This document shows positions 3,849 to 32,068 of a DNA stretch of 33,626 bases, piece after piece. Positions within the stretch are counted from its first letter, which is position 1. Every line of letters begins with the position of its first letter. Under the pieces are notes generated by a model. It did no database searches. It was not told the origin of the DNA and worked only from the letters and a program-made list of their open reading frames with translations. A program made the translations under genes and the position numbers. Source of the stretch: a virus; IMG/VR virus record IMGVR_UViG_3300033144_005562, positions 1 through 33,626 of that record. One strand, 5' to 3'.

Positions 3849-4220
3849 ATGAAATTTCTACTGACATTGACCATCACAATAATGCTTTTCGGCTCATTGG
3901 CACATTCAAGGATCCACGCTGTCCTGATCTCTGCCACAAAAACAGTGGCGCTTGCTGCCACACCTGAGCCACTTGCTGGTGTTGGTGTTTTTTCTGATGA
4001 TCTTATTGTCCAAGCAAAGACAGCCAACACTCAACCTGTGTTTTTTGGGCCATGCTCTGGGACTCAAGACATTGAGCTTGCTGCAGGTGCATCAATTGGC
4101 ATTTCAGAAATCACAAGTGTGAGGAGTGAGGTGGGAATTGACCTCAACAAGATCTGTTTGAAAGTTAGCGTCAATGGTGAGGCTGCAAGCATTTTATATA
4201 CAAAAGTTGTTTCACAATAA
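3849..4220 (+). CDS. Exported hypothetical protein (signal peptide)
   Basis: 123 residues with a clear Sec signal peptide: MKF, a hydrophobic run, then SLAHS near residue 20. The mature part looks like a small beta-sandwich. Its organisation (VFFGPCSGT, then AAGASIGI) resembles small phage virion-decoration or spike proteins that place an oligomer-like loop before an ASIGI turn. Two cysteines (GPCSG, KICLK) could form a disulfide outside the cytoplasm. AGGGGAG precedes the ATG. It is followed after 11 bases by another exported protein. An exported protein with a virion-like fold is unusual; surface decoration or exclusion are possible roles, but this is inference. Confidence 0.6.
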   Translation: MKFLLTLTITIMLFGSLAHSRIHAVLISATKTVALAATPEPLAGVGVFSDDLIVQAKTANTQPVFFGPCSGTQDIELAAGASIGISEITSVRSEVGIDLNKICLKVSVNGEAASILYTKVVSQ

Positions 4221-4231
4221 GGGGCTTTAAG

Positions 4232-5182
4232 ATGAAATTTTTAATTTTTCTATTCATATTTTCAACATCAATTTTTGCTGGAATCTCAATCACACCTCCC
4301 TCTGGTGGTGCTGGTGGAGCTGGCACAACTCAAAATTCAAATTTGGACATCATAGAGGGTGGTGACTGGTCTTTTGATGGCAATGATTTGATTCTATCAG
4401 CGGATGCCTACATTCAGCACCCACCTTTCCTTGATGATAGAAACACAATTGCGGCTCAGACTATTTCTTTGACAGCAGATCAAGTGGCCTATGTCGATGT
4501 CAATAAAACAACAGATTCACAAACAAATCTGACAGTGAATAAGGTTGATGTGGGCAGCTATGTTGAGGCTGATGATCGCTATGTTTTTTTAAGGAGACTT
4601 GGATCCAGCATCACAATTGCAGAGCAACAGGATTTTGAAACTACAGCCAATATGATTGGCTTTGGTGATCTGGCAAGCTGGAGAGCACAATCCTTTGTTG
4701 CAACAGCCTCTGAAAATTTAACTGAAATCAAAATGAAGTTTTTTAGAGAGGTTTCCTTGGTAGGACCTTTTAAAATAAAAATCCAAGCAGACTCTGCAGG
4801 GGATCCAAGTGGATCTGATCTTGAAGTGATCACAGTGACTGCTGGAGAGGTGGCAGCACTGCCCACCTCAGCAAGTGGTATCTATCAATCTTATCCAGCC
4901 GCAGGCACTCTGGCTCTAGTCAATGGCACAACCTATTGGATGGTCTATGATCCAGATTTCACAGCTGGAGGTTTTTTGAAAGTCGAGTATGGAGCAAGCA
5001 GTGGCTATGCAGGAGATTTTTTCACCTCAAGTGACAGTGGATCAACATGGTCAAATGCTGGCACTCTTGATCTGGCATTTGAAATCTTAAATGCCACAAG
5101 TGATGTTCGTGTCCAGATAGGCAAAAAGATGACTCTATTGTCTGGTGATTCAGCGCCCCTGTATAGTGGGACTCGCCCCTAA
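4232..5182 (+). CDS. Exported fibre-like protein (signal peptide)
   Basis: 316 residues. A 16-residue Sec signal peptide ends at IFA before GIS. A glycine-rich linker (GGAGGAG) follows, then a tail-fibre-like N-terminal region (LTADQVAYVDVNKT, FLRRLGSS). A galactose-binding or jelly-roll-like domain comes next, roughly residues 130-290, marked by SFVATASENLTEI and a TYWMVYDP strand. No cysteines seen. It follows the 123-residue exported protein and is ended by an intrinsic terminator at 5206. The combination of fibre-like sequence and secretion signal is repeated in the protein at 13632-14702. Likely displayed on the host surface or in the periplasm; exact role unknown. Confidence 0.62.
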   Translation: MKFLIFLFIFSTSIFAGISITPPSGGAGGAGTTQNSNLDIIEGGDWSFDGNDLILSADAYIQHPPFLDDRNTIAAQTISLTADQVAYVDVNKTTDSQTNLTVNKVDVGSYVEADDRYVFLRRLGSSITIAEQQDFETTANMIGFGDLASWRAQSFVATASENLTEIKMKFFREVSLVGPFKIKIQADSAGDPSGSDLEVITVTAGEVAALPTSASGIYQSYPAAGTLALVNGTTYWMVYDPDFTAGGFLKVEYGASSGYAGDFFTSSDSGSTWSNAGTLDLAFEILNATSDVRVQIGKKMTLLSGDSAPLYSGTRP

Positions 5183-5361: not shown

Positions 5362-6207
5362 ATGACTAATCTTTTAAAGCTCAATTCACCAATCCATGGA
5401 GAAATCTCAAGCCAAAAATGGGATCATGTTGTGGTCTCTGTTTCTGGTGGAAAAGACTCAGGAGCCCTGCTTGCATGGGCTGTTGAAAACTTTCCAAAAG
5501 AAAAATTGATTGCTGTCCACGCCATCATTGATATTGATTGGCACGAAACAATGGACATTGTGAAAGCTCACGCTGATCATTTTGGTGTTGAGCTTGTTTG
5601 TGTCCAGGCTGTTGACAAAAATGGTGAGAAAAAAGGTTTTATTGATCAGCTCTTGTCCCCAAGAGTGAATAGAAAAACTGGTGTTGTTGGTGAATATCAA
5701 TTCCCTGGACCTGCACAGAGATGGTGCACTTCAATTTTAAAAACAGGACCGATTGACAAATATTGCAGAGCTCTCAAAGGAAACATCCTTGTGCTCATTG
5801 GTGAAAGAAGAGAGGAGTCCAGCAATAGAGCAAAACTTTCAGCTGTGAGACCTGATTCAAAAAATTCAAAAGCTGGCAGATCAATTGTGAAATATTCACC
5901 AATCCTTGATCTCTTGGAAAAAGATGTGTGGAAATTGACAGCTGAGCTCAGCATCCCAAAACACCCATGCTATGATTTGGGAATCAGCCGCGCGTCCTGT
6001 GCAATTTGTATTTTCTCAAGCAAAAAGGAAATTGCAATTGCTGCAATCCATGCTCCTGACATTGTGCAAAAATACATGGATGCTGAGGCAAAAATTCAAC
6101 ACTCATTCAGATACAAAAAAGCAACAAAGAAAACCCCTGAGCAAAAGCTTTCAATCAAAGATATTTTAGCAGAGCAAGGCATTTCTCTTGCTGAGGAGGA
6201 GTCATGA
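5362..6207 (+). CDS. PP-loop ATPase, PAPS reductase / DndC-like family (first of pair)
   Basis: 281 residues. The P-type loop SGGKDS (28-33) marks the PP-loop ATP pyrophosphatase superfamily, which activates substrates by adenylation. Next come WCTSILKTGPI with Cys122, matching the Cys-LK-P element of PAPS reductases, and a SCAICIF pair (Cys213, Cys216). The three cysteines could hold an iron-sulfur cluster or carry sulfur. The region IGERREES matches the conserved Arg-rich signature between these. GGGAG precedes the ATG. The stop overlaps the second PP-loop gene (ATGA). Phage members are often labelled PAPS reductases. Roles in sulfate reduction, in sulfur modification of nucleic acid (DndC) or in tRNA thiolation cannot be told apart from the sequence. 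Confidence 0.8.
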   Translation: MTNLLKLNSPIHGEISSQKWDHVVVSVSGGKDSGALLAWAVENFPKEKLIAVHAIIDIDWHETMDIVKAHADHFGVELVCVQAVDKNGEKKGFIDQLLSPRVNRKTGVVGEYQFPGPAQRWCTSILKTGPIDKYCRALKGNILVLIGERREESSNRAKLSAVRPDSKNSKAGRSIVKYSPILDLLEKDVWKLTAELSIPKHPCYDLGISRASCAICIFSSKKEIAIAAIHAPDIVQKYMDAEAKIQHSFRYKKATKKTPEQKLSIKDILAEQGISLAEEES

Positions 6208-7091
6208 TCTGCAAAAAATTGACTGTTTTGAGTTTTGGTGGTGGCCAGGACTCCACCACTATTCTGCAAAAAATAATTCATGATCCAGCTTTCAGAGCTC
6301 AGCATGTTTCCGGGCACTTGGTTGTGGTGATGAGTGACACTGGTGATGAGCACCCCAAAACCTATGAGCACACCAAAGCCATGCAGCTCCTGTGCATTGA
6401 GCACAACATTGATTTTTTCTTTCTCACTCCTGACATGGGTTTCCATTATGAAAAATGGAGAGATCTCAGATCCTTTTATGAAAGGACCAAAACCATTGGC
6501 TCCAAAGCATTCCCAAAGACCTGCACTGACAAGCTGAAAATCCAGCCCATTTATAAATTTTTGGAATTTTGGATTGGTGAAAATTATGGCTTTGATGTTG
6601 GCAGAAAAAAGGCTCTCTATGAGCTGGCTGAAAAGCATGGCAAAATCAAAGTCCTTTTGGGGATTGCAAGAGGTGAGGAGAGGAGAGCATCAGGCAATGA
6701 CTGTGGCCCTCTGTGGATGCAAAGGACCATTGAGAAAGTCTATCCACTCATTGATGAGGGAATGGACAGAGCTGATTGCCAGGCCTACTTGAGAGATATT
6801 GGTGAGGTGGTCCCTCAGCCATCAAATTGCATGCTCTGCCCTTACATGAGCAAGGTGGAGCTTTTATGGCTATTCAGAAACCACCCCACAGATTTCAAAG
6901 AATGGGTGAGGCTTGAGGCTCAAAAGCTGGAAAAGCACAAAGAAAAGGGCTCAAAGAATTTGGGTGTCTTTGGTGTGAAAAATCTAGAGGTGATCTTGCA
7001 AGAGGCCATCACTGAGCATGGGCACATGACTGATGCTGATCTTGATGAATACAAGATGAGCCATGGCCACTGTGTGAAGTCAAAATTTTGA
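6204..7091 (+). CDS. PP-loop ATPase, PAPS reductase-like family (second of pair)
   Basis: 295 residues. The loop is SFGGGQDSTT (10-19), a glutamine-for-lysine version of SGGxDS found in a distinct phage subfamily. The cysteine layout mirrors its neighbour: Cys107 in TCTDKLKIQPI and a CMLC pair (Cys209, Cys212). LLGIARGEERR corresponds to the Arg-rich signature. Compared with the first gene it has an extra aromatic segment (HYEKWRDLRSFYERT) and a charged C-terminal extension. It starts by ATGA overlap with the first gene, so the two are probably translated together and may form a complex. Between 6313 and 7190 there is no CpG. Its stop codon directly abuts the stop of the last minus-strand gene. 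Confidence 0.78.
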   Translation: MICKKLTVLSFGGGQDSTTILQKIIHDPAFRAQHVSGHLVVVMSDTGDEHPKTYEHTKAMQLLCIEHNIDFFFLTPDMGFHYEKWRDLRSFYERTKTIGSKAFPKTCTDKLKIQPIYKFLEFWIGENYGFDVGRKKALYELAEKHGKIKVLLGIARGEERRASGNDCGPLWMQRTIEKVYPLIDEGMDRADCQAYLRDIGEVVPQPSNCMLCPYMSKVELLWLFRNHPTDFKEWVRLEAQKLEKHKEKGSKNLGVFGVKNLEVILQEAITEHGHMTDADLDEYKMSHGHCVKSKF

Positions 7092-7965: not shown

Positions 7966-8532
7966 TCAAGTTGACAAAGTCAGTCCAAGAAATGCCTCAA
8001 TTTTATTTTTCAATTTCAACAACCTATTGTCATTCACAAAAGGGTTTAGTCCTGGCCCTGCATTATTCCACTCAGTTGGATTGTCTCTCAAATGTTGCAA
8101 AACTCTCCGCGCCACTCTGAGTGCACCATCATGAAAAGCATCATTCAGTGAAATTGGCAATCCATTTGAGTCAATATCATAGCCTTTTGCCCAAAGACCA
8201 ATCACCCCTGATCTTTTCCCAGATCCATTGATGCCAAGGTCTAAGTTTTTAGCCCGATACTGCAGCAATATTTTTTCAATAAAAGGAAAAATTTCACTTT
8301 TTAGATTGTCGTTTTCATTATCCTCATTTGTCTGACTCACAAAGGTGGTGACATAATTATTGGTGGCGGTAGTTTGAGGTCCAGTCACATCAGTGCTGAA
8401 AAATATCTTGATGGCTGTCCCATCAATTTGGGTGTGTTTATAAATAGCCCCAAGTGTTGCATGCTCAACCAGACCACTGTGAAATTTTGAGGGATTTGTG
8501 ATTGTTTTTGTGTAAGTCAATTCAGTGGCCAT
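7966..8532 (-). CDS. Hypothetical late protein in the fibre region
   Basis: 188 residues, not recognised. The first half is beta-rich (SGLVEHATLGAIYKHTQ, TAIKIFFSTDV). The second half is helical and charged, ending in a leucine-rich helix. The start overlaps the stop of the upstream fibre gene by one base, indicating coupled translation. Position among fibre genes suggests a virion or fibre-assembly protein. Confidence 0.55.
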   Translation of the reverse strand: MATELTYTKTITNPSKFHSGLVEHATLGAIYKHTQIDGTAIKIFFSTDVTGPQTTATNNYVTTFVSQTNEDNENDNLKSEIFPFIEKILLQYRAKNLDLGINGSGKRSGVIGLWAKGYDIDSNGLPISLNDAFHDGALRVARRVLQHLRDNPTEWNNAGPGLNPFVNDNRLLKLKNKIEAFLGLTLST

Positions 8533-9509
8533 TATGCTGATGCTCCCAATCTCACAAGCAACATGCTGCGCCCTGTGAATTCAACAGTCCCACCTGTGAC
8601 ATTGGTTCTGATGTCAATGGCCTGAGTGCCATCCACTGAAATGATTCCAAGGGATTGAGCCGATCCTAAAAAATTCACACTCACCCCTTGAGTACTTCTT
8701 CTTGTTGCCTCATCAGCAACACCATCAACATACATGACCACCTCAGCCACCCTATTGTTTGTCACAATTTTTGTGTCTGCAGAAAACCAGACAGCATACC
8801 TGCCATCAACAGGGGTGAGAGTCATGCCTGTGATCATCACATCAGTATCAGATCCAGTTGAAAATAAAGTGTCTGTTTCAACAAAAGAGCTCAAGATCCC
8901 AGTGGCACTGTTTGAGGTGACTGTGAAAATCCACTCACCATTTGCTGTGTCCTTGTGTTGACACAGTGCCTTGATGACATCTTGAGGATTCAAAGTGATG
9001 ACACTTGTGCCATCCTGCAGCTGAAAGTCAATTGGCTCAGAGGAGTCATTGATGACCTCAAAAGCTCTGCCCAGTTTTAAGGTTGTGGCAACAGGCAGTT
9101 TGACTTTGAAACCTGTGGCTGTGCCACCAACATCAACAAAAGTGTTGTCAGCTGCAACAAGAGCCCTTGTCCCATTCAGCGTTGTTGTCACAATTTCAGG
9201 AGGCAAAACACTGGTGGTCCTGAGCTCCTCTAGTGCCAATTTCACATTAGTGCTTGCACTTTTAAAAGTGGATCCACCATCAGCAAAGCCAACATCTTGT
9301 GCAGAGTATTTTCTCCAATCACTGGCAGTGTCACCAGCCCCCACCTTTTTCCAGATCAACTGGCCAGCAGCAAGAGTCTGACAATAGACTGTGTTGAATG
9401 GGAGCCCTTGCCCTATAGGACTTGTGGCCCCACCTGTATAGAAAGGGCCATCATTATCCTCATCAACAATCATCCCATCAGGGACTGAAAATGCTTTGTC
9501 AACGTCCAA
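8532..9509 (-). CDS. Tail fibre protein
   Basis: 325 residues. The layout is typical of phage fibres: an N-terminal attachment region, then VGAGDTASDWRKYSAQDVGF, a trimer-type segment (STNVKLALEELRTT), and beta-rich modules. The C-terminal third (DTDVMITGMTLTPVDGRYAVWFSADT) looks like a jelly-roll tip found in fibre and C1q-like domains. The start is TTG with GGAGGG about eight bases upstream; no nearby in-frame ATG fits. It follows the second fibre gene by 14 bases. It probably contributes to receptor binding. Confidence 0.65.
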   Translation of the reverse strand: MDVDKAFSVPDGMIVDEDNDGPFYTGGATSPIGQGLPFNTVYCQTLAAGQLIWKKVGAGDTASDWRKYSAQDVGFADGGSTFKSASTNVKLALEELRTTSVLPPEIVTTTLNGTRALVAADNTFVDVGGTATGFKVKLPVATTLKLGRAFEVINDSSEPIDFQLQDGTSVITLNPQDVIKALCQHKDTANGEWIFTVTSNSATGILSSFVETDTLFSTGSDTDVMITGMTLTPVDGRYAVWFSADTKIVTNNRVAEVVMYVDGVADEATRRSTQGVSVNFLGSAQSLGIISVDGTQAIDIRTNVTGGTVEFTGRSMLLVRLGASA

Positions 9510-9523
9510 GCGTCAACCCTCCA

Positions 9524-10456
9524 TTAGTTTACAACAGTACGTCTTAGGGAAACGTGCACACCAGCTGTGGAGCTGGATGCTCTCAGTCTCACTGCCTGTG
9601 CAGCACCAACACCATTTAAATCAACAGTTAACACTAGGTTGAAATTTCCAAATTTAAGTTTTGCAAATTGAGTGTCATCAACAAGCGTTGCATCAGCACC
9701 AGCATGACCATTGTGAATTGCCACAATCTTGCTGGCTTTTTTATTGGCAGGTGTTGCCTCTTCAAAAGCTACAATCTCCCACTCAACCTGTTGAATGTCA
9801 TCAGCAAGCACTGTGTCCAAGTCCTGCAGAGTGGTCACATTTGCAACATCAATCTGAGCTCCACCTGAAATGGTCTCAAGCTGTGTTTCGAGTGCTTGCA
9901 GAGCTGCTTTATTGGTTGAGGTGTCTGGAATAGTGATTCCTGTGAATGTGCCCAAATCAGTGGCATTCTCAGCCACCCCACTCAATGTGATTAGGTCATC
10001 AACATTTTGATCAGTCTCCTCATAGGCTGTTTCAATAGCCTGGAGAGCTGCTTTTGTGGTGACATTATCAGCAATGGTGGCACCTGTGAAAGTGCCATTG
10101 TCCACAGCACCTTGAGCAAGTCCACTTGCTGTTTGAATATCGTCTTGATTGCCAACAATTTTTTCAACAGCCTCCTCAACAGTGTCACCAATAGCAATTG
10201 TGCCGTTTGCTGCAGCATAGCCTGCAGACAATAGGCCTGGAGGCATCAAATCCCAATCAGCCAAAGCTCCTGCATTTGCAATTTTTCTGTAGAAATTCCC
10301 ATCAGTCCTTTGGTATGTTGAGCCAATGGGAGCGGCATCCTGTGGCCCCGCGTCTCCACCAGGTGCTGCAGATCCGGCAATGGCTGACGACAGCAAAAGG
10401 CCATCAACGTCAAAAATATCCAATCCCTTTTCTACTCCAAAATTTGCTCTACTCAT
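9524..10456 (-). CDS. Tail fibre protein with 48-residue tandem repeat
   Basis: 310 residues. The N-terminus has the fibre signature GGDAGPQDAAPIGSTYQRT followed by YRKIANAGALADW. Two copies of a 48-residue module (from residues 111 and 159) share GTFTGxTIxD and KAALQAxET. The C-terminal 90 residues form a beta-rich domain resembling tip domains of the neighbouring fibre. The ATG is preceded by AAAGGGGAGAG. Located with the other fibres downstream of the lysis genes. Expected at the baseplate periphery for host recognition. Confidence 0.65.
   Translation of the reverse strand: MSRANFGVEKGLDIFDVDGLLLSSAIAGSAAPGGDAGPQDAAPIGSTYQRTDGNFYRKIANAGALADWDLMPPGLLSAGYAAANGTIAIGDTVEEAVEKIVGNQDDIQTASGLAQGAVDNGTFTGATIADNVTTKAALQAIETAYEETDQNVDDLITLSGVAENATDLGTFTGITIPDTSTNKAALQALETQLETISGGAQIDVANVTTLQDLDTVLADDIQQVEWEIVAFEEATPANKKASKIVAIHNGHAGADATLVDDTQFAKLKFGNFNLVLTVDLNGVGAAQAVRLRASSSTAGVHVSLRRTVVN
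9860..10126 (-). repeat. Two-copy 48-residue repeat in the tail fibre gene
   Basis: Residues 111-158 and 159-199 align as tandem copies: SGxAxxAxDxGTFTG, then NKAALQAxET. At DNA level CCTGTGAA recurs at 9939 and 10083 on the plus strand, 144 bases apart. Such repeats change fibre length by recombination. Confidence 0.6.
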
Positions 10457-10813: not shown

Positions 10814-11695
10814 CTACCCTCTCAATTCTCTCAAGTGGTTTCTCAATTCAATCAAAGTCATTGACAGTGAGCCACCAGGATCTGATTTTCTGCCTGGTGA
10901 AATTTCATCATGCCCCACAAGCCAATCAATATCAAAGTCTGGATTGACATCAAGTCTCCACAAAATGAAGTTGATGAGAGATTTCTCCTGAGCTGGTGTG
11001 AATTTATGATATTTTCCAGGTGCTTGATTTGCAATTTTCAAAGGGATCTCTCTGATGGCATTATTTGGAATCTGCAATCCAAACCAACTTTTGCCATCCT
11101 TTTCCAGCTTTCCAGCATTGCAGATCTCCATGCCTAGACAATATCTGGAAACACCAGTCTTGCCTGCCCACGCGCTTTTGCCAGCATGCCAGGCAATCTC
11201 ATCAAGCATTTGTGATTTTGCCTTATAGATGATCCCCTCAGAATCCATCACCAAACATCCAAGACCTTTTGAGGCCAAATGAGTGAGAGTGTTTTTGGCT
11301 GATTGAGCTCCTCTGTCAAATCTGCCAGCAGTATAGTGCACAACAAGTCCCTTTTCCTGGCCACTTTCAGTCAAATATTGACCATGTGTTTTGATGTCCA
11401 CATCCACAACCTCAATTTGAGGGATCTCATAGAGGGGTTTTTTGCCACTTTCTGATGGTCTCACAGGCTCTTTGAGCTGCTTTTCTCTGATCATGTTTTG
11501 CACCCTTTCAAGCTCAGTTTCTGCAGCAAGATAGTTGGCCACCTTGTCAGCTGATTTTTTGTCAATTGAGGCTATGAATTCATAATAATTTTTGACAGCT
11601 CTCTCTTGCCTTTCCTTTGTTTTCAAAAAGTTTTTGATCATCCACATGATGAGTGGTCCTGCCAGACTTAAAACTGATCCAATTATTGACATCAT
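10814..11695 (-). CDS. Membrane-anchored N-acetylmuramoyl-L-alanine amidase (endolysin)
   Basis: 293 residues. Residues about 3-24 form a hydrophobic helix (signal anchor). A charged, helical region to about 75 follows, with a proline-rich linker after it. From about 115 it is an Amidase_2/AmpD-type zinc amidase: LVVHYTAG with His120, AWHAGKS, GMEICNAG, and GHDEISPGRKSDPGG with His262 and Asp272 ten residues apart as in AmpD. It cleaves the lactyl-peptide link of peptidoglycan. The anchor, which contains glycine and serine (SIIGSVLSLAGP), recalls SAR endolysins that are exported and released later. The stop of the lipoprotein gene overlaps its start (TAATG). Confidence 0.85.
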   Translation of the reverse strand: MMSIIGSVLSLAGPLIMWMIKNFLKTKERQERAVKNYYEFIASIDKKSADKVANYLAAETELERVQNMIREKQLKEPVRPSESGKKPLYEIPQIEVVDVDIKTHGQYLTESGQEKGLVVHYTAGRFDRGAQSAKNTLTHLASKGLGCLVMDSEGIIYKAKSQMLDEIAWHAGKSAWAGKTGVSRYCLGMEICNAGKLEKDGKSWFGLQIPNNAIREIPLKIANQAPGKYHKFTPAQEKSLINFILWRLDVNPDFDIDWLVGHDEISPGRKSDPGGSLSMTLIELRNHLRELRG

Positions 11696-12432
11696 TATTC
11701 AACTCCTCTGATTGGAATGCTATCATAGCCAAAAGTGACCATTTTGTGAAAGTTATCTGCATTTTGCTCATCAACAAAAAAGATTGTGCACTCACCAGGA
11801 GGCATCAAAAACACCCAATTTCTCTTGTCTTTTGGGACTCTGATCTCACAGCCAACAACCTTTGTGCTGATGACATTCCTGTTGAAATGAATGCTCTGGA
11901 TGAGCCCTTTTTTTGCCTGACAGACTGAAGTCCCACCAAATTTTGTGGTCTCACCATTGCACATCACTGTGGCTGGCAATTTTTCTCTCTCAGAATCTAT
12001 GGCAACAAGTCCCCAAGCATGCCTGCCTTTGTTTTTCTCATAGACACCAGCATCAAAAGGACAGGTTTTTTTGACCTCATGGAGCATTGTTGGCCAGACT
12101 TCAAATTCATAAAATCTTTTTGAAAACCAGCCACCATGTCTTTTTGGATTGGGTGTTTTCCACTCTCTATGGCATGACAGCACTGTGATCATGTCAGCTC
12201 TGCCAGGAGGCTCAATCCTGATTTTGTAGCCTCTTGATTGTGTGACAACTCCCATGCCAATGATGGTCTTGTGAGGCTGCCATTTTTTTCCATCCCAGAT
12301 CTTGATTTTCATTTTCAAGTCTTTTTGATAGTCGATGTCTGTTGAAAGAATGGGTGCAATGTAGCCTGTTGATGCACAAGCAGTCAGCCACATAAAAATT
12401 GCTGTGAAAGCTATTCTTTTGAGTTGGATCAA
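11695..12432 (-). CDS. Lipoprotein of unknown function in the lysis region
   Basis: About 245 residues from the TTG at 12432, which has AGGAGGA just upstream; an ATG at 12453 would place that ribosome site inside the gene. It has a lipobox LTAC with Cys19 as the lipidated residue, after a short basic and hydrophobic signal. The mature part has at least five cysteines (SCHREW, KTCPF, VMCNGE, VCQAK, VGCEI, ECTIF), suggesting a disulfide-rich periplasmic fold. It is immediately upstream of the endolysin. Candidate roles are outer-membrane spanin-like lysis factor or superinfection exclusion, but it is much larger than known o-spanins. Not recognised as a family. Confidence 0.6.
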   Translation of the reverse strand: MIQLKRIAFTAIFMWLTACASTGYIAPILSTDIDYQKDLKMKIKIWDGKKWQPHKTIIGMGVVTQSRGYKIRIEPPGRADMITVLSCHREWKTPNPKRHGGWFSKRFYEFEVWPTMLHEVKKTCPFDAGVYEKNKGRHAWGLVAIDSEREKLPATVMCNGETTKFGGTSVCQAKKGLIQSIHFNRNVISTKVVGCEIRVPKDKRNWVFLMPPGECTIFFVDEQNADNFHKMVTFGYDSIPIRGVE

Positions 12433-12458
12433 GGCTCCTCCTATTGATTCCAAAAGTG

Positions 12459-13208: not shown

Positions 13209-13619
13209 TCATAAATCAACTGGATCAATGGATGGCTCAAAAGCATCCTTGATCAGGATATTCAAACAATCTTTTATTTCAGATGGTGTCATGGCTGGAG
13301 CACCATTCACAACTGTCACACAAGCGGCCATATTTGCAAGTCTTTCTGATTTTTTTGTGTCTCTAGTTGATTGCTCAGCAGCTTTGGCAGCATCCTCAAC
13401 ATCAGCTGTAGCATCTCCTGCACTGTCAATGACCAAAACCCCACTCACCACTTTCCAGCGCCTCATGTCTTTACCAGAAACATCAAAACATGATTGGCTC
13501 TCTATGCTTTCACAATGAGACTTTTTCACATAGACTGTTTTTGCTCCAACTTTCCCGACAGGGAAATAGTTGGCAAAAACAAACATTGGCACCAGCAAAA
13601 CAAATAAAAACAATTTCAT
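13209..13619 (-). CDS. Exported small protein (signal peptide)
   Basis: About 136 residues from the ATG at 13619, preceded by AAAGGATG; the ATG at 13628 would put that site inside. A 16-residue signal peptide ends VFA before NYF. Four cysteines (SHCESI, SQSCFD, AACVTV, KDCLNI) suggest disulfides in the periplasm. Not recognised. It lies directly downstream of another exported protein (13632-14702), so the two form a secreted pair within the late operon. Confidence 0.6.
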   Translation of the reverse strand: MKLFLFVLLVPMFVFANYFPVGKVGAKTVYVKKSHCESIESQSCFDVSGKDMRRWKVVSGVLVIDSAGDATADVEDAAKAAEQSTRDTKKSERLANMAACVTVVNGAPAMTPSEIKDCLNILIKDAFEPSIDPVDL

Positions 13620-13631
13620 ATTCAACATCCT

Positions 13632-14702
13632 TTATTTCCCCATACAAGTTATAGTGACACCAGCCTCAGTGGCCACTCCTGTGGAGGCCAAATAAACCCC
13701 CACGCCCATATTTGTGACATTTGGCACAGTTGTTGTGCAAGTAAATCCTGTCAAAGAGCCATTCATTGCTGCACAAGTGCACCTTGGGTTTGTTGACCAA
13801 TAACTCCCAACCCAATTGATAGTCGCAAAATCTCCATTATTGGTCACAGATGTCACACAGCCACCATATTGAAAATCTAAAGCAGGAGCTGTCACAACAC
13901 TGCTAACAAAAATAGTGCAAGACTTCATGTCATTGTCAGCTCCAGACCCTATTTTATTTTTCAGTCTGTCAATTATGTCAGCGAGAATGGGAGCGTCCGG
14001 AGAAGTCTGGGCCATTGTTGCAGCCCAAGTGCCTGCTGTTGTCTGATTTGATTTGAATCTGGCCAACATTCGGAAAGGCACATCTGTCCTGGCAGCTGTT
14101 GAATAGATTCCATCATCATCACTTGTTGCATCAATAGCCACAGTTGTGATCCTTGAGGACTCATCTTTGAGAGCACTTGAGACAGCCAGCTCAACAACAC
14201 CAGCATTGTTGAGTGCATAGAGATAGATGAAACCATCAGTGGCGTCAACATGGCCCAAGGTGGCCCCACTTGGGATCACTATGGTCCTGGCAGAGCTCAC
14301 AGTCCTGATATTATAGGCTCCATTTGCTGCAACAAGATTTCTGAATGCTATTTTGACAAGATTCCCACTTGTCGGATCTGTTGTGCCATCGGCCACTTTT
14401 AGATCAATAGTCAACGCTGAGGCTGCAACACTTGAGTCAAAGCCAGCATTTTCAATCAGTGCAGCTGCATTCCCTGACAAATCCAGAATTGACTGAAAGC
14501 CAATTCCATCATCAGAAACCTGCATTTTTGAGGTGGCTTGATCCCACTTTAAAAGGCCTGAGCCCATCTGGATCTCTTTGTCCACCCCTGCATTTTGATC
14601 ACCAAGGATCAAAGTATTGTCTTGGATTTTTGCTGCAAAAGAAATGCTGCAAGCAAATAATATTGCCAACAATAGTGTCAATTTTCCTGTGAATGTTTTC
14701 AT
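13632..14702 (-). CDS. Exported fibre-like protein (signal peptide, six C-terminal cysteines)
   Basis: 356 residues. A Sec signal of about 23 residues ends in SISFA. The mature N-terminus has a fibre-type opening (LILGDQNAGVDKEIQMG) and further fibre-like beta-rich sections (FIYLYALNNAGVVELAVSS). The C-terminal 100 residues contain six cysteines (KSCTI, GGCVT, PRCTC, FTCTT, ITCMG), which fits a disulfide-bonded extracellular tip domain. It lies immediately after a tail-fibre gene and before the lysis region. A cytoplasmically assembled fibre would not need a signal peptide. It may therefore be displayed on the host surface or act in the periplasm. Similar secreted fibre-like adhesins are known in predatory Bdellovibrio. 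Confidence 0.6.
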   Translation of the reverse strand: MKTFTGKLTLLLAILFACSISFAAKIQDNTLILGDQNAGVDKEIQMGSGLLKWDQATSKMQVSDDGIGFQSILDLSGNAAALIENAGFDSSVAASALTIDLKVADGTTDPTSGNLVKIAFRNLVAANGAYNIRTVSSARTIVIPSGATLGHVDATDGFIYLYALNNAGVVELAVSSALKDESSRITTVAIDATSDDDGIYSTAARTDVPFRMLARFKSNQTTAGTWAATMAQTSPDAPILADIIDRLKNKIGSGADNDMKSCTIFVSSVVTAPALDFQYGGCVTSVTNNGDFATINWVGSYWSTNPRCTCAAMNGSLTGFTCTTTVPNVTNMGVGVYLASTGVATEAGVTITCMGK

Positions 14703-14721
14703 GTTTGTGCTCCCTCACCTA

Positions 14722-15270
14722 TCATTGGTTGAATTTTGTTATGCCTGTTATTTTCAATGTTGATGCATAATTGGCACCAGCAATGTTTGTTGAAACATAT
14801 TGCAATTGGCCTGCAGCTGTCACACTGAAAGTCACCCCAGCATCATCCAAAACAGATGTTAGAGAGATTCTCCATGCATCATCGGCTGTGTCATGGGACA
14901 AATAAACTGTGCCAATCTCTTGAGTGTTGGATGAATCGGTCTGTCTATGGAGATCAAATTCAAGTTTTGCTGCTTTAAAATCAACCTTGTCTATAAGGAC
15001 ACCAGTCACATCTTGAGGAGTGCCCTCATTATTGTTGACCGATTGACTCAATTGAGTGCCACCAAGACCAATGGCTGAATTGATTGCCCTAGTCAGCTGA
15101 TCAGAGTCATTTTTTGAAAGAGCCTCATGAGCCTCAATGAAAACAGCCAAATTCTCCTGGACATCATTCATCCAATCATCTGTGATTGTTGTGGCTGGAA
15201 TCCCTAGACTCGGATTTCCCTCGGTGAAAAGCTCAGTTATTGTTGCCCCTGGTCCATCAATTCTATGCAT
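14722..15270 (-). CDS. Tail fibre protein, N-terminal attachment type
   Basis: 182 residues. It begins MHRIDGPGATITELFTEGNP followed by IPATTITDDWMNDVQENL. This is the conserved opening of fibre proteins that attach next to YmfQ/gp48 in Mu-like baseplates. The C-terminal part is a beta-rich domain with no recognisable tip, ending in ITKFNQ, so it is a short fibre. AGGGAGA precedes the ATG. It sits between YmfQ and the exported fibre-like protein. Confidence 0.7.
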   Translation of the reverse strand: MHRIDGPGATITELFTEGNPSLGIPATTITDDWMNDVQENLAVFIEAHEALSKNDSDQLTRAINSAIGLGGTQLSQSVNNNEGTPQDVTGVLIDKVDFKAAKLEFDLHRQTDSSNTQEIGTVYLSHDTADDAWRISLTSVLDDAGVTFSVTAAGQLQYVSTNIAGANYASTLKITGITKFNQ

Positions 15271-15285
15271 GGCTCAATCTCCCTA

Positions 15286-15930
15286 TCAACTAAATGTGAA
15301 AGTAGCACAGCTCTGTGCTGGCTTCAATTTTCTTATTGTGCACTCAATCAGAGGATTAGTGAACAACACCAAAGGCTGTCCAACCTCCTCCCCTACTTCT
15401 AATATTTCAGCAGCTGTGGCTGGCATTTCTGTGTTGAAACAAAATCTCCACCCCACATTTCTCAGCTGGTTTCCCACAGTCTCCCCAACTTGCAAGGATT
15501 CGTCAAAATAATTTGTGAGAGAATCACCAACAGTGGCTCTCCCCACCACACAATTGACGCGGTTTTCCACTGTTATCACATGGCCCAATTGCAGGCCCAA
15601 AAATTCATAAAAGGTTTTTGAAAGACCACCAACATTGGTCATCTTTTGGACTATCTGATTGATTCTCTCATCAAGAGTCTGGACATCAGGTGTGCATTCA
15701 TCAGGCAGAGCAAAGACTCTCTCAAAATCTGTGAGCAATTCACTTGTTGTCCTTGGATCAACCTCAACAAGCATGTCATTGATTCTGTCCTCAACTCTGC
15801 AGAGCTCCTCAGCAAGAGCCTTTAAAAGAGCCATAAAAATTGGCTGAGATCTGGGCTGCCAAAGCCTCCCTTTTGGGAGCAAATTGATCAACAGATCTTT
15901 ATATTTTTCAATGCCTGCAGGTGTGGCCAT
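15286..15930 (-). CDS. Baseplate protein, Mu gp48 / YmfQ family (DUF2313)
   Basis: 214 residues. The start KYKDLLINLLPKGRLW is the family hallmark, followed by a helical region (LAEELCRVEDRINDMLVEVDPRTTSELL) that leads into LTDFERVFALPDECT. The C-terminal half carries several cysteines. It is an inner-baseplate component at the tail-fibre junction. It follows gp47-like and precedes the short fibre, the standard Mu order. AGGGGAG precedes the ATG. Confidence 0.85.
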   Translation of the reverse strand: MATPAGIEKYKDLLINLLPKGRLWQPRSQPIFMALLKALAEELCRVEDRINDMLVEVDPRTTSELLTDFERVFALPDECTPDVQTLDERINQIVQKMTNVGGLSKTFYEFLGLQLGHVITVENRVNCVVGRATVGDSLTNYFDESLQVGETVGNQLRNVGWRFCFNTEMPATAAEILEVGEEVGQPLVLFTNPLIECTIRKLKPAQSCATFTFS

Positions 15931-15940
15931 CTATTCTCCC

Positions 15941-17056
15941 CTATGCCAAAGTCTGAAAAGTAATTGTGCCCAATGTGAGCAATCCACCCTCAACAGCTTG
16001 TGGATCTGTGGCTGGACTCACAATCACATGATCCTCCTCACCACTGGCAATTGAGATGGCCTCATTGAGTTTTGAAAGTGCAATTGTGCCATCAAATTGC
16101 ACACCCAATCCAACTTGCTCAGGATCCACTGCATTTCTGACTTGGGCCTCTCTGAAAACAACATCCTCAATTTCTGCAGTCACAGCAGCTCTGACAGCCA
16201 ATGTGTTGGGCTTTATTGAAATGGTCATGTCCAGGACACTTTCATTTGGTGCAAATGTTGTGAGATCAGCATTGATTGGCTTTAAAAGCACAACAGCATC
16301 CTGGACCTCAGTGACTTTGGCTGGACTTGGAATGATTGACGCTGGTGCATTTCCATCTTCAACAAAAGTCAGCCCCACCTCTCCCTGAGATGCAAAAAGA
16401 TTGGGCAGCACCCAGACTCTTGTGACTCCTGTGACTGTTTTTGCAAAAGCAATGTAATCATGCACAGTCCCCCCTGATGGTGGCTGCTGGAGCCTTTCAA
16501 GGACTCTGGTCCTGTAGTCCTCAAGCTCCTCTTGATCCTCACCCTCAGTGGCTGTTGTTGTCACTGTGGCATCAGTCTCAACATTTGCAACAGGACTCAA
16601 AAGACTCACTGTTGAGGAGTCTGCCAGATTCCCATTCTCACCAGCCTCTGATGCAATGATCACAGTGTTGATGGTCTCAGCTCCCACTGATGTGATTTCT
16701 GTTTCTATAGTATATTGAAAGCCATCAGATCTCTGATAGACAGTGCCAACAATCAAGGTGGCCACACCTGTGAAAACAATGTCCACATTCAACCTTGCAA
16801 AAGTGGCATCATTTCTGGGCACATTGTAGAGAGTCCCCCACCTGATAACAGTGGCCTCATCACCTGTGTCTGGAAAAAATTTCTCTTCAATTCCATTTTG
16901 AATGTTTCCATGAAGAGTGTGAGAGGCTCCACCAAGAGCTTTTGAGATCACCTCCTCAAAGGATCTCCTCAAAATAGCTTGCAGCTGCAGGCCTGATTTG
17001 ATGTCTGCTTTGATCCTGTCAACAATTGTGCTCAATGCTGGTCTTGAAAATGGCAT
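15941..17056 (-). CDS. Baseplate J / Mu gp47-like protein
   Basis: 371 residues. It opens with FSRPALSTIVDRIKADI and has the family's central section: GTLYNVPRNDATFAR, then GTVYQRSDGFQYT, then GENGNLADSSTVSL, and LEDYRTRVLERLQQPPSGGTV. This protein forms the baseplate wedge. The start overlaps the stop of the gp46-like gene by one base, so they are coupled. Length is normal for the family. Confidence 0.88.
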   Translation of the reverse strand: MPFSRPALSTIVDRIKADIKSGLQLQAILRRSFEEVISKALGGASHTLHGNIQNGIEEKFFPDTGDEATVIRWGTLYNVPRNDATFARLNVDIVFTGVATLIVGTVYQRSDGFQYTIETEITSVGAETINTVIIASEAGENGNLADSSTVSLLSPVANVETDATVTTTATEGEDQEELEDYRTRVLERLQQPPSGGTVHDYIAFAKTVTGVTRVWVLPNLFASQGEVGLTFVEDGNAPASIIPSPAKVTEVQDAVVLLKPINADLTTFAPNESVLDMTISIKPNTLAVRAAVTAEIEDVVFREAQVRNAVDPEQVGLGVQFDGTIALSKLNEAISIASGEEDHVIVSPATDPQAVEGGLLTLGTITFQTLA

Positions 17057-20568: not shown

Positions 20569-21984
20569 CTATAGGAGCCCTCCCTGCAAGCCAGTGTTGA
20601 GAGTCAATGGAGCTGTGCCTGATGTTTTGGTCCTGACTCCCTTGGTGTCTCCCTTGAGTGTGATTTCCACAGCTGCATTGTTGGTGGCTGTTGTGCTGGT
20701 GGATCCTGTGGCTGCATTTCTCACAGCTTTTTTTGCACCAACATCTGGCCCAAGAGCTCCACCTGCTTTTTTCTTTTCATCATCCCCACCAAAGCCAAAG
20801 AATGTTTTCCCAACTTTTGCAATTGTGCCAAAAAATCCTTTCCCAGACTTAAAGGCACCAACCAGCTTGTCCCATGCAAAAAATGCTCTTGCAAGGATGG
20901 CAACAAGCGCCACCACTGCAGCCACAATGAGCCACACTGGTGCTGTGATGACAGCCATGACAGTGGCAATCCCAATCATGGCTGCTTTCACAAAAGCAAG
21001 CACTGGCAGCAAGGCAGCAAAGACTGTGCTGAAAACCCCAAAGATCCAAATCACTGGCCCTGCAACAGCTGCAAAAGCTGCCACAGCCAATCCAAATTTC
21101 AACATGGCTGGACTGGTCCTGGAGACAGCTGTGAAAAAATCAGTGAGACCTTTTGCAACATCAACAACAAATTCAAGCAATCCACTATTTGCAATTGAAA
21201 TGGCCATTGCCTCAAAAGCAGAGTTGAATTTTGCAAAAGCACCAACAGCACCACGCTGCATGTTTTTTTGCATTTCTTTGGTCACACCATTTGATTTGAG
21301 TAATATTTTATTGAAAGCCTCAATGGGATTTTTCCCATCTTTCATTGCTTGAGCCATCAAGCTGGCTCCACCAGCAATCCCCCTTTTCCCAAAAAGCTCA
21401 TTGAGCACAGCAAGCTGATCACCCTTGTTGAGATTTCCAAGAGCTGGCCCAAGCTCTGTGAGAATTGCACCAGCACCTTTCATTGAGCCATCTGCATTGA
21501 CCACTGCAATGCCCATTTGTTGCATCATCTTTGCAGCTTTGGCTGATGGTGCAGCAATTTTCACAAGCATGTTTTTCATTGTTGTGCCTGCCTGTGATGC
21601 CTGGATCCCCATGTTTCCAAGCATCCCTGTGAATGCTGCAGTCTGCTCAAGTGTTAAGCCATAGGCCTTTGCAATAGGAGCTGCCTGAGCAAAGGACTCT
21701 CTCATCATGTCAACACTCACGTTGGAATTTCTTGCAGTATTTGAAAGCACATCAGCAATTCTTGTGGCATCACTTGCCTCAAGACCAAATTGTTTCATAG
21801 TCTTTGCAATAATATCAGCACCATCTGCAAGCTCAAGCCCATTGGCTGTTGCAAAAGCAAGTGAGATGCCTGTCATTTTCATGATTTGTTGTGTTTTAAA
21901 GCCAGATCTTGCAAGCACAGCCATTGCATCAGCTGCTTGAGTGGCACTGAATTCTGTTGTGGCACCAAGTCTTTTTGCCTCAGT
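20569..21984 (-). CDS. Tail tape measure protein, C-terminal part (after in-frame TAA)
   Basis: About 471 codons that continue the frame of the upstream gene after a TAA; the first ATG is at 21924. The first 20 codons (TEAKRLGATTEFSATQAADA) are the heart of the TP901 tape-measure domain, so they belong to the protein although they precede any ATG. No ribosome site supports a restart at 21924. Later come the alternating helices of the family and hydrophobic segments near AAFAAVAGPVIWIFGVF, typical of tape measures. It determines tail length and passes into the host during DNA ejection. Combined length with the upstream part is about 590 codons, shorter than Mu gp42. As written the gene is broken. 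Confidence 0.82.
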   Translation of the reverse strand, partial: TEAKRLGATTEFSATQAADAMAVLARSGFKTQQIMKMTGISLAFATANGLELADGADIIAKTMKQFGLEASDATRIADVLSNTARNSNVSVDMMRESFAQAAPIAKAYGLTLEQTAAFTGMLGNMGIQASQAGTTMKNMLVKIAAPSAKAAKMMQQMGIAVVNADGSMKGAGAILTELGPALGNLNKGDQLAVLNELFGKRGIAGGASLMAQAMKDGKNPIEAFNKILLKSNGVTKEMQKNMQRGAVGAFAKFNSAFEAMAISIANSGLLEFVVDVAKGLTDFFTAVSRTSPAMLKFGLAVAAFAAVAGPVIWIFGVFSTVFAALLPVLAFVKAAMIGIATVMAVITAPVWLIVAAVVALVAILARAFFAWDKLVGAFKSGKGFFGTIAKVGKTFFGFGGDDEKKKAGGALGPDVGAKKAVRNAATGSTSTTATNNAAVEITLKGDTKGVRTKTSGTAPLTLNTGLQGGLL

Positions 21985-22341
21985 TTACAACAGCTTGAAA
22001 TTTGCTGTGGCTTTTCCACCAATTAAAGTCCCTGAGATTGCACCAACCTTGTTCATTGATTTCTGAAAATTGACAGCCATTTTGATGAATGCTGCACCCG
22101 CAAGAGCAACAGGAGCTGTCATGCCCATTGTCATGCTCCTGCCCACACCCCGCATTTTTTTGCCCATTTTAGAGAGAGATCTCCTGAGCTTTTCTGTCTT
22201 TTTTTGCATGATTGCAAAGGCAGTTGATGCTCTCCTGGCTGCCCTTGATAGTTTTGGAAATTTACTTTTCACTCTTTGGAGGACTTTTGAAATCCTATCA
22301 ACAGCACCAATGGTGACAAAAGTTGGAATTCTTTGAGCCAT
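21985..22341 (-). CDS. Tail tape measure protein, N-terminal part (truncated by TAA)
   Basis: 118 residues up to a TAA at 21985-21987. Basic helical N-terminus (RVKSKFPKLSRAARRAST), then GRSMTMGMTAPVALAGAAFI and FQKSMNKVGAISG, which open the TP901 family domain. The frame continues without shift beyond the stop into the conserved AKRLGATTEFSATQAA. A CAA (Gln) to TAA change would explain the stop. GGGGGATGAG precedes the ATG. It follows the tail-assembly chaperone, the standard place for a tape measure. Confidence 0.8.
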   Translation of the reverse strand: MAQRIPTFVTIGAVDRISKVLQRVKSKFPKLSRAARRASTAFAIMQKKTEKLRRSLSKMGKKMRGVGRSMTMGMTAPVALAGAAFIKMAVNFQKSMNKVGAISGTLIGGKATANFKLL

Positions 22342-30175: not shown

Positions 30176-32068
30176 TCACAGAAATCTGCTTTTTCTACGC
30201 TTTAAAACCTTTTTTTCAGCCTTTTCTAGTTCTTTTTTCTCACTTTTGATTGGCTTTGTCACTTGATTCAAGCCTATCTCATTTTCCAATTTGGTCCAAT
30301 GGTGGTCTTGAAACCTATCAATGCCACACATTGCAGCACCAACTCTGGCCATGATCCTGCAATCAAGAGCCTCATTTCTATCTCTGGTCTTTTCCCATTC
30401 AAATTTTTTGACAGCTTTTGCCCATCTGATGATCAATTGCTCAGCAGTGAGCATTTTAAAAAACTCCTCATCATATTCAGGGAAATGACTCCACCCATAG
30501 GGGGGAGAATCACCCTCATCTGGACTGGGCATTTTCAACCAACCATAGAGCTCTTGTTTTGCAATGGATACTCCTATGCTGAAAACCCTCATCCCTCTTG
30601 AGATCCTCCTGCCACTGATTGTGACATCCACTGTGGATGGCAATCCCACCAACACTGAGGCTGTGTGAGATCCTTTGGTGGCTCTGACTTTTGTGATTGG
30701 AAATTGTCTGCACCAGGCATAGACAACATTTGTGTTGTAGCCTGAATCAACACACATCATCCTCAAAGGCTGATCAATTTTTCCATTGACCCAGGTTTCC
30801 CTGGTGAGTTTTTCCAACTCAAGCCATGGCCCTGTTTTGTGGTCACTGGTGTCACCATGGAAAACCCTATAGTCAATTGACCAGCTTTCCATGTTTCGAC
30901 CAAAGCCCACAATCTCAACCTCAAGTCTATCTTTTTGCACATCACAACCTGCACAGATCATGAGCACCCCTTTTGGGACTGTGTTGATTTCATATGACTC
31001 TCTTCTTTCATAGAGCCTTTTCCAATCAGGAGCGTCACCCTTGTCTTTCCAGGTCTCACCAAGGACAGTGTTGACAAAAGTCCTCAGCTTTTCACTGTTG
31101 CTTTGAGCTTTGATCCAATCCTTTGCAAGCTCTCCCCAACTAATCCAGCCCACAGGAGAATAGAGGGAGCTCAAATGATAGCCTGTGACTTTTGGATCTG
31201 CATTTTCAGGAGCCATTTGTCTCCACTCTCCTGCAGCAAGCATCTTTGTCTTTTGCCAATTTTCTATGGCCTCCTCACAAATTTCACAAATGTAGACAGC
31301 CTCTGTTGGTTTTCCTTTTGGCCATTTTATTTGAGGCCATTTGAGCCATTGCATGCCATCACAATGTGGGCATGGTACAAAATATTTTTTTTGATCAGTG
31401 AGCTCATAGGCGGCCTCAATTTTTGACCTGCCCTCAATGGTGGGAGTTGAGACCTTGAATTTTTTTCTCTTTGAGAAAGTCCTGGTCCTTGCCTCAGCAA
31501 GATCAATAGGAGATCCCTCTCCACCACAATCATCAGTGTAGGCATCAATCTCATCTAAAAAAATGTATCTCACAGGGGATGATCTCAAGCCTACTGGACT
31601 GTTGGATCCAGTCATGATCAAAAGGCCACCTGGATATTCTTTGGTGAGGACAGTGTTTCCTGAGTCTCTTGCTTTGGCATCTTTGACTTTCTCTTTTAGT
31701 GATGGGCACTCCTCAATCAATGGAGCAATCCTTTGCTTTGAGTGTCTTTTTGCAAGCTCCACTGTTGGCTGGATCACCATCATTGGGCCTGGTGCTTGAT
31801 CAATTACATAGCCCACCCAATTATTGCCACACTCAGTGCCACCAATCTGAGCACCTTTCATGAAAGTGATGTCCTCAACAATTGAGGTTGTTGACAGATC
31901 ATCCATTATTTCTTTTAAAAATGGAGTCCTTGATGTCCTCCAAAATCCAGGCTCAGCTGAGGCTTTTTGGCTCAGGATTCTATTTTGATCTGCCCATTCA
32001 CTGACAGTCAAAATTGGATCTGGCTTGATTCCATTCCAAAAATTTTGCTCATAGACTTCTATTGCCAC
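30176..32068 (-). CDS. Terminase large subunit, GpA family
   Basis: 630 residues. Walker A-type loop MKGAQIGGTE at 70-79 and Walker B RYIFLDEID at about 167-175. Zinc-ribbon-like pairs CPHC and CEIC follow (about 235-270). The nuclease half includes VDSGYNTNVVYAW. It powers packaging and makes the terminal cuts (cos-type in known GpA relatives). The start overlaps the YiiX-like gene by ten bases. Length and order (small subunit, large subunit, gpW, portal) fit lambda. Confidence 0.92.
   Translation of the reverse strand: MAIEVYEQNFWNGIKPDPILTVSEWADQNRILSQKASAEPGFWRTSRTPFLKEIMDDLSTTSIVEDITFMKGAQIGGTECGNNWVGYVIDQAPGPMMVIQPTVELAKRHSKQRIAPLIEECPSLKEKVKDAKARDSGNTVLTKEYPGGLLIMTGSNSPVGLRSSPVRYIFLDEIDAYTDDCGGEGSPIDLAEARTRTFSKRKKFKVSTPTIEGRSKIEAAYELTDQKKYFVPCPHCDGMQWLKWPQIKWPKGKPTEAVYICEICEEAIENWQKTKMLAAGEWRQMAPENADPKVTGYHLSSLYSPVGWISWGELAKDWIKAQSNSEKLRTFVNTVLGETWKDKGDAPDWKRLYERRESYEINTVPKGVLMICAGCDVQKDRLEVEIVGFGRNMESWSIDYRVFHGDTSDHKTGPWLELEKLTRETWVNGKIDQPLRMMCVDSGYNTNVVYAWCRQFPITKVRATKGSHTASVLVGLPSTVDVTISGRRISRGMRVFSIGVSIAKQELYGWLKMPSPDEGDSPPYGWSHFPEYDEEFFKMLTAEQLIIRWAKAVKKFEWEKTRDRNEALDCRIMARVGAAMCGIDRFQDHHWTKLENEIGLNQVTKPIKSEKKELEKAEKKVLKRRKSRFL

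Follow-up and report, generated by a model that had tools for sequence, protein, structure and literature searches.

Prey recognition by Bdellovibrio has been reported to use exported, phage-type fibres, and the MAT (mosaic adhesive trimeric) proteins of this bacterium carry a signal peptide followed by a conserved domain of about 130 aa (PMC10769870). An exported protein is also known from phage T5, in which Llp blocks FhuA and is encoded by a gene that adjoins, on the downstream side, the gene of the receptor-binding protein pb5 (PMC9586334). The window analyzed here, a stretch of viral DNA of 33,626 nucleotides, encodes on its minus strand (13632..14702) a 356-aa fibre-type protein that is predicted to be exported, based on ORF reading and on conservation in a clade of related phages. 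This protein is referred to as the SP-fibre below. It is very probably an exported fibre that is conserved together with the tail module.

The SP-fibre ORF starts with ATG, and the strong ribosome-binding site AGGTGAGGGAG (14710..14720, minus strand) was read directly 7 nt 5' of this codon. The gene belongs to a late operon, in which baseplate J (15941..17056) and a Mu gp48-like baseplate protein (15286..15930), both on the minus strand, are located ahead of it. They are followed by a short tail fibre of 182 aa (14722..15270, minus strand; phrog_2617, E 5.6e-17), which has no signal peptide and no cysteine and is separated from the SP-fibre by 19 nt. Only 3 nt downstream of the SP-fibre lies the gene of a second signal-peptide protein (13209..13628, minus strand; 139 aa, cysteine-containing), in the place usually occupied by a tail-fibre chaperone gene. 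Relatives of this second protein were found in L124 and L179 and similar genes in L180 and L105, while it was absent in L177, L178, L182 and L185. Further downstream, the window has two other fibre-like genes without signal peptide (8532-9509 and 9524-10456), and several clade members also have such genes downstream.

Several other genes of the window were recorded. Two more signal-peptide genes are located on the opposite strand (3849-4220 and 4232-5182, plus strand); the product of the latter is fibre-like, and its residues 88-316 match (28%) structural proteins of Dickeya and Salmonella phages such as LIMEstone1. The ORF at 11695-12453 (minus strand) has an LTAC lipobox-like start, has conserved counterparts close to the lysis genes of L124, L179 and L185, and possibly encodes an outer-membrane spanin or a lipoprotein. 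The tape-measure gene (20569-22341, minus strand) is apparently split into ORFs of 118 and 451 aa, while L124 and L105 have a single ORF of about 605 aa; a frameshift, a sequencing error and an insertion are the candidate causes. Two adjacent ORFs at 5362-7091 (plus strand) appear by eye to be PAPS-reductase/ATP-pyrophosphatase-like (SGGKDS and SFGGGQDS motifs).

The Sec signal peptide was assigned to residues 1-23 (14634..14702, minus strand), with a predicted cut at SFA|AK. The N-terminus, MKTFTGKLTLLLAILFACSISFA|AKIQDNTLILGD, has the charged n-region, hydrophobic core and S-F-A cut of the classical Sec type, and the mature protein would start with AKIQDN. Because our rule-based scorer was uncalibrated except for one control set and gives a positive call for 12 of 226 controls (ORFs of at least 200 aa), the argument for export rests on conservation. 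All nine clade members keep the charged n-region, the hydrophobic core and a small residue ahead of the cut, although the core sequence varies, and 'GAKI.DN' is present in most of them. The SP-fibre of L182 was missed by the scorer, but it can be aligned with the others. A lipoprotein reading (ILFA|C at C18, a loose lipobox in the window) was rejected because the C18 lipobox is not conserved in the clade, and no conserved membrane or lipid anchor was found in the clade.

Apart from C18 within the signal peptide, the cysteines of the protein are residues 262, 282, 308, 310, 322 and 353, so that all six mature cysteines lie in the final 95 residues. Mature SP-fibres contain 1.54 cysteines per 100 aa, and the 34 control fibres contain 0.47 (p 4e-12 in a Fisher test, an optimistic value because the SP-fibre members are related), and the mature cysteine count is even in 10 of 11 SP-fibres. 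The original prediction described a fibre-type protein among tail-fibre genes with a Sec signal peptide and six cysteines, and named a missing signal peptide as evidence to the contrary. These features were borne out: the gene follows a short tail fibre directly, the body of its product is related to phage fibres, the signal peptide was found by the scorer and is conserved in nine phages, and the six cysteines are all located in the mature C-terminal region.

Three parts were distinguished in the mature protein, all encoded on the minus strand. The collar (residues 24-73; 14484..14633) is its conserved part (DN.L.LGD...D.EIQMG.G.LKWD...KM.FS.DGG), and a version of it without signal peptide forms the N-terminus of the siphophage fibre L224 (E 1e-5). 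Viral contigs could not be scanned with the collar alignment because of its diversity. The body (residues 87-232; 14007..14444) is related to phage fibre domains, with matches to Pseudomonas phage AH02 (36%, 4e-12) and Phage WC36-2 (34%, 9e-5), and neither of these fibre relatives has a signal peptide. A DGR/Mtd reading was rejected, as the AH02 match covers the body only and the window ORFs, as read without a profile search, showed no reverse transcriptase. The cysteine-rich tip domain (residues 259-356; 13635..13928) is described by profile A10, which is common to the SP-fibres of the window, L124 (three copies), L178, L179, L182, L105 and L091, seven in all. In a sample of 114 Bdellovibrionota genomes this domain was found in the fibres of two prophages and in two small chromosomal proteins predicted to be exported, and in none of 180 genomes of another phylum (sample from Marinobacter centre). 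Chromosomal Bdellovibrionota proteins of about 200 aa (L232:7220-7816, minus strand; L233:1397-2002, plus strand) combine a signal peptide with the phage-fibre cysteine tip domain.

As a whole, the SP-fibre had no family match in Pfam and chance-level matches only in PHROG. The window fibre used as a single-protein query retrieved no relative from viral and genome contigs, and against 291 Bdellovibrionota genomes it gave one weak match only, to a chromosomal lipoprotein (L093). The AlphaFold monomer of the full-length SP-fibre was poor (pLDDT 41) and unusable. The tip model was all-beta (pLDDT 64); its matches in the PDB were weak (best E 0.19; pyocin fibre with probability 0.98 and TM 0.57) and included R-pyocin fibre tips, phage fibres and Helix agglutinin, an H-type lectin, while BFVD gave matches to phage proteins, tail fibres among them, the best of which had an E of 2e-4. 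In this weak model, the fold of the tip is similar to H-type lectins and to the fibre tips of pyocins and phages. In none of the phages examined did the tip sequence occur again in another protein that is not exported. The tip region of another SP-fibre (L177:5591-8068) contains a pentaxin-type domain (PF00354, 27 bits; Pfam cut-off 25), which suggests ligand or glycan binding.

A query with baseplate J identified L124 as a close relative of the window with the same gene order (sheath 61%, short fibre 55%), and the 48% identity between the two SP-fibres is confined to the signal peptide and the collar. The short tail fibre used as a query retrieved 45 loci, comprising 8 with a full-length homologue, 34 sharing the N-terminal motif only, and three truncated ones that were left out. 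An SP-fibre was the next gene in the window and in each of the 8 viral contigs whose homologue is full-length (nine phages), and in none of the 34 control loci, in which the fibre is intact and usually longer and Tfa-like genes usually come next. A full-length short tail fibre was thus always directly upstream of an SP-fibre. The clade counts are not independent because its members, all metagenomic contigs besides the window, are related, and the control loci include some near-identical pairs. The short tail fibre is conserved over its whole length in the clade (47-55%) and itself lacks a variable tip. The SP-fibres (337-825 aa, one cut by a contig end) are conserved mainly over the signal peptide and collar, and their tips are swapped, all nine being different. 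In L241, no further fibre-sized gene was found downstream within the late operon (the contig ends were outside the reading).

The association of this phage group with Bdellovibrionota was supported by sequence evidence from several sources. In a scan in which each of 85,000 species was represented by one genome, the best of the matches listed for the window terminase was a Bdellovibrionales MAG (60%), and the next were from other phyla (54%). The closest phage record of this terminase (30176-32068, minus strand) is Wolbachia phage WO (54%), which points to an unexpected terminase link between WO and Bdellovibrionota phages. Three Bdellovibrionota prophages have an SP-fibre after the tail-fibre genes: L105, a syntenic Mu-like prophage inside a 1.48-Mb Bdellovibrionota contig; L117, an element with a terminase identity of 57%, in which a short tail fibre is followed by the SP-fibre; and L091, an element of the Bdellovibrionales MAG with an unrelated tail, which encodes a 765-aa SP-fibre at the equivalent place. 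A lead that cyanophage proteins sharing a module with L091 likewise carry a signal peptide was dropped once these proteins had been translated. The lytic phage phi1422, isolated on B. bacteriovorus, has a tail fibre without cysteine (gp67) followed by gp68, a 614-aa protein with a signal peptide and 8 cysteines that is annotated as hypothetical. Among the tail-end genes examined in the phi1422 relatives that infect Aeromonas, Vibrio, Pectobacterium and Iodobacter, none encodes a protein with a signal peptide. Comparison of gp68 with the SP-fibres gave no significant similarity (best 35% over 103 aa, to an SP-fibre other than that of the window, E 0.016). Because gp68 is not detectably homologous, the arrangement of a fibre followed by an exported fibre recurs across lineages. 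A second signal-peptide, fibre-like protein of phi1422 is gp75 (L234:44298-44810). No SP-fibre was found in three phages in or near Bdellovibrionota, namely a P2-like element of G024 (L104), a siphophage of G121 (L224) and a Silvanigrella phage (L235).

The link to a Bdellovibrionota host suggested in the original prediction was therefore strengthened by the terminase match, the syntenic L105 prophage and the same arrangement in phi1422, whereas its parallel with the Bdellovibrio adhesins did not extend to equivalence with MAT proteins. A profile of the MAT N-domain was built from 13 N-termini of chromosomal Bdellovibrionota S74 proteins, taken here as MAT-type. It gave 1.6 bits for the window and at most 5.3 bits for the other SP-fibres, compared with 58-304 bits for the chromosomal proteins that possess this domain, and an S74 domain was not found by Pfam in the window SP-fibre. 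Because the defining beta-rich N-domain of about 130 aa is absent after the signal peptide, membership in the MAT family was rejected. The display on the infected cell that the original prediction put forward, to block receptors or alter host adhesion, is a candidate role, for which no conserved membrane or lipid anchor was seen.

We tentatively favour the explanation that the SP-fibre is an exported, oxidised fibre released at lysis, which docks on the short tail fibre and completes a split tail fibre as its distal, receptor-binding half. The protein would be made late in infection together with the tail genes and exported by Sec; it would fold in the periplasm, probably as a trimer, where its disulfides would form. 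At lysis it would meet the virions, and the conserved collar would dock on the short tail fibre, giving a split fibre made of a cytoplasmic stub and an exported, exchangeable receptor-binding half. A stub conserved over its whole length next to a protein conserved mainly at the signal peptide and collar, with swapped tips, is the pattern expected of a receptor-binding half. The next-gene pattern (nine of nine clade phages, none of 34 controls) and the tip-less conserved stub support this explanation, as do the relationship of the collar to the N-terminus of the non-exported L224 fibre, the likeness of the tip model to R-pyocin and phage fibre tips, the L241 late operon lacking another fibre-sized gene, and the lack of a second non-exported tip copy in the phages examined. 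On the other hand, tails of tailed phages assemble in the cytoplasm, and we know of no tailed phage with a fibre added after export. Moreover, the downstream fibre-like genes without signal peptide could encode the virion receptor binders, phi1422 gp67, preceding gp68, looks like a complete fibre, and the monomer model was poor. The wider proposal is more doubtful still, namely that tailed phages of Bdellovibrionota build a two-compartment fibre, in which a cytoplasmic stub is joined at lysis by a Sec-exported, disulfide-bonded receptor-binding half matured in the periplasm, with an exported helper of its own in some phages.

Three other explanations were ranked below the split fibre, and none of the readings is proven. 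It is rather unlikely, though next in rank, that the exported fibre binds and masks surface glycans or the phage receptor, either from within the periplasm or on the debris of lysis, and so keeps progeny from being lost to a dying host, for instance in a closed prey ghost. T5 Llp is a precedent that is likewise encoded next to a receptor-binding gene (PMC9586334), the modelled tip fold is lectin-like, and masking would work without a surface anchor. However, the SP-fibres have no conserved lipobox, are far larger than Llp (337-825 aa vs about 60 aa), and carry a tip that copies no other protein of the same phage, and a free soluble fibre would compete with progeny too. Less probable again is a predator adhesin, by which the phage would supply its host with a new surface fibre for prey contact, as a phage-borne MAT analogue. 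The exported phage-type fibres in Bdellovibrio prey recognition (PMC10769870) and the same tip domain in small, predicted exported proteins of two Bdellovibrionota chromosomes fit this explanation, but the protein has no MAT N-domain, which is presumed to be the part next to the cell, phi1422 is lytic, and the position inside the late operon, 19 nt from the upstream gene, leaves no room for an own promoter and suggests expression during lytic growth. Finally, since export is here predicted from sequence, the hydrophobic N-terminus might not work as an export signal and might stay uncleaved on an otherwise ordinary fibre of the virion, but this is very improbable given that the n-/h-/c-region pattern is kept in all members despite core drift, that cysteines are enriched and even in number, and that the partner protein (13209-13628) also has a signal peptide.

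To our knowledge, textbook tail fibres are never outside the cytoplasm before lysis, and it is unusual that several Bdellovibrionota phages, unrelated to each other, carry a conserved exported fibre within the tail operon. It would mean that a virion adhesin can be built by a new route, that there is a new strategy of exclusion, or that phages are a source of the predators' fibre adhesins. An SP-fibre after a tail-fibre gene is also a simple marker by which genomes of phages that infect predatory bacteria can be recognized, and gp68 of the cultured phage phi1422 permits direct testing of an exported fibre.

Compared with known systems, the SP-fibre departs from the usual virion tail fibre, which has no export signal. 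It shares with the Mu-type module of tail fibre and Tfa the place behind gp48 and the N-terminal motif of the fibre, but here the fibre is a stub of 182-191 aa, and the next genes encode predicted exported proteins instead of a long tip and Tfa. The body domain is common to AH02 gp15 ('major tropism determinant', 36%), which has no signal peptide and differs in its N- and C-terminal parts. Like T5 Llp and the Cor lipoproteins of superinfection exclusion, the SP-fibre is a phage-encoded, predicted exported protein adjoining a receptor-binding gene, but it is much larger, fibre-type and without a conserved lipobox. Phi1422 gp68 is similar in being a signal-peptide, cysteine-containing protein whose gene immediately follows that of the tail fibre in a Bdellovibrio phage. 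The MAT fibres resemble it in predicted export, modular structure, exchangeable tips and bacterial phylum, but the SP-fibre is phage-encoded within a tail operon; it may share their compartment and might act similarly, yet it is not a member of that family.
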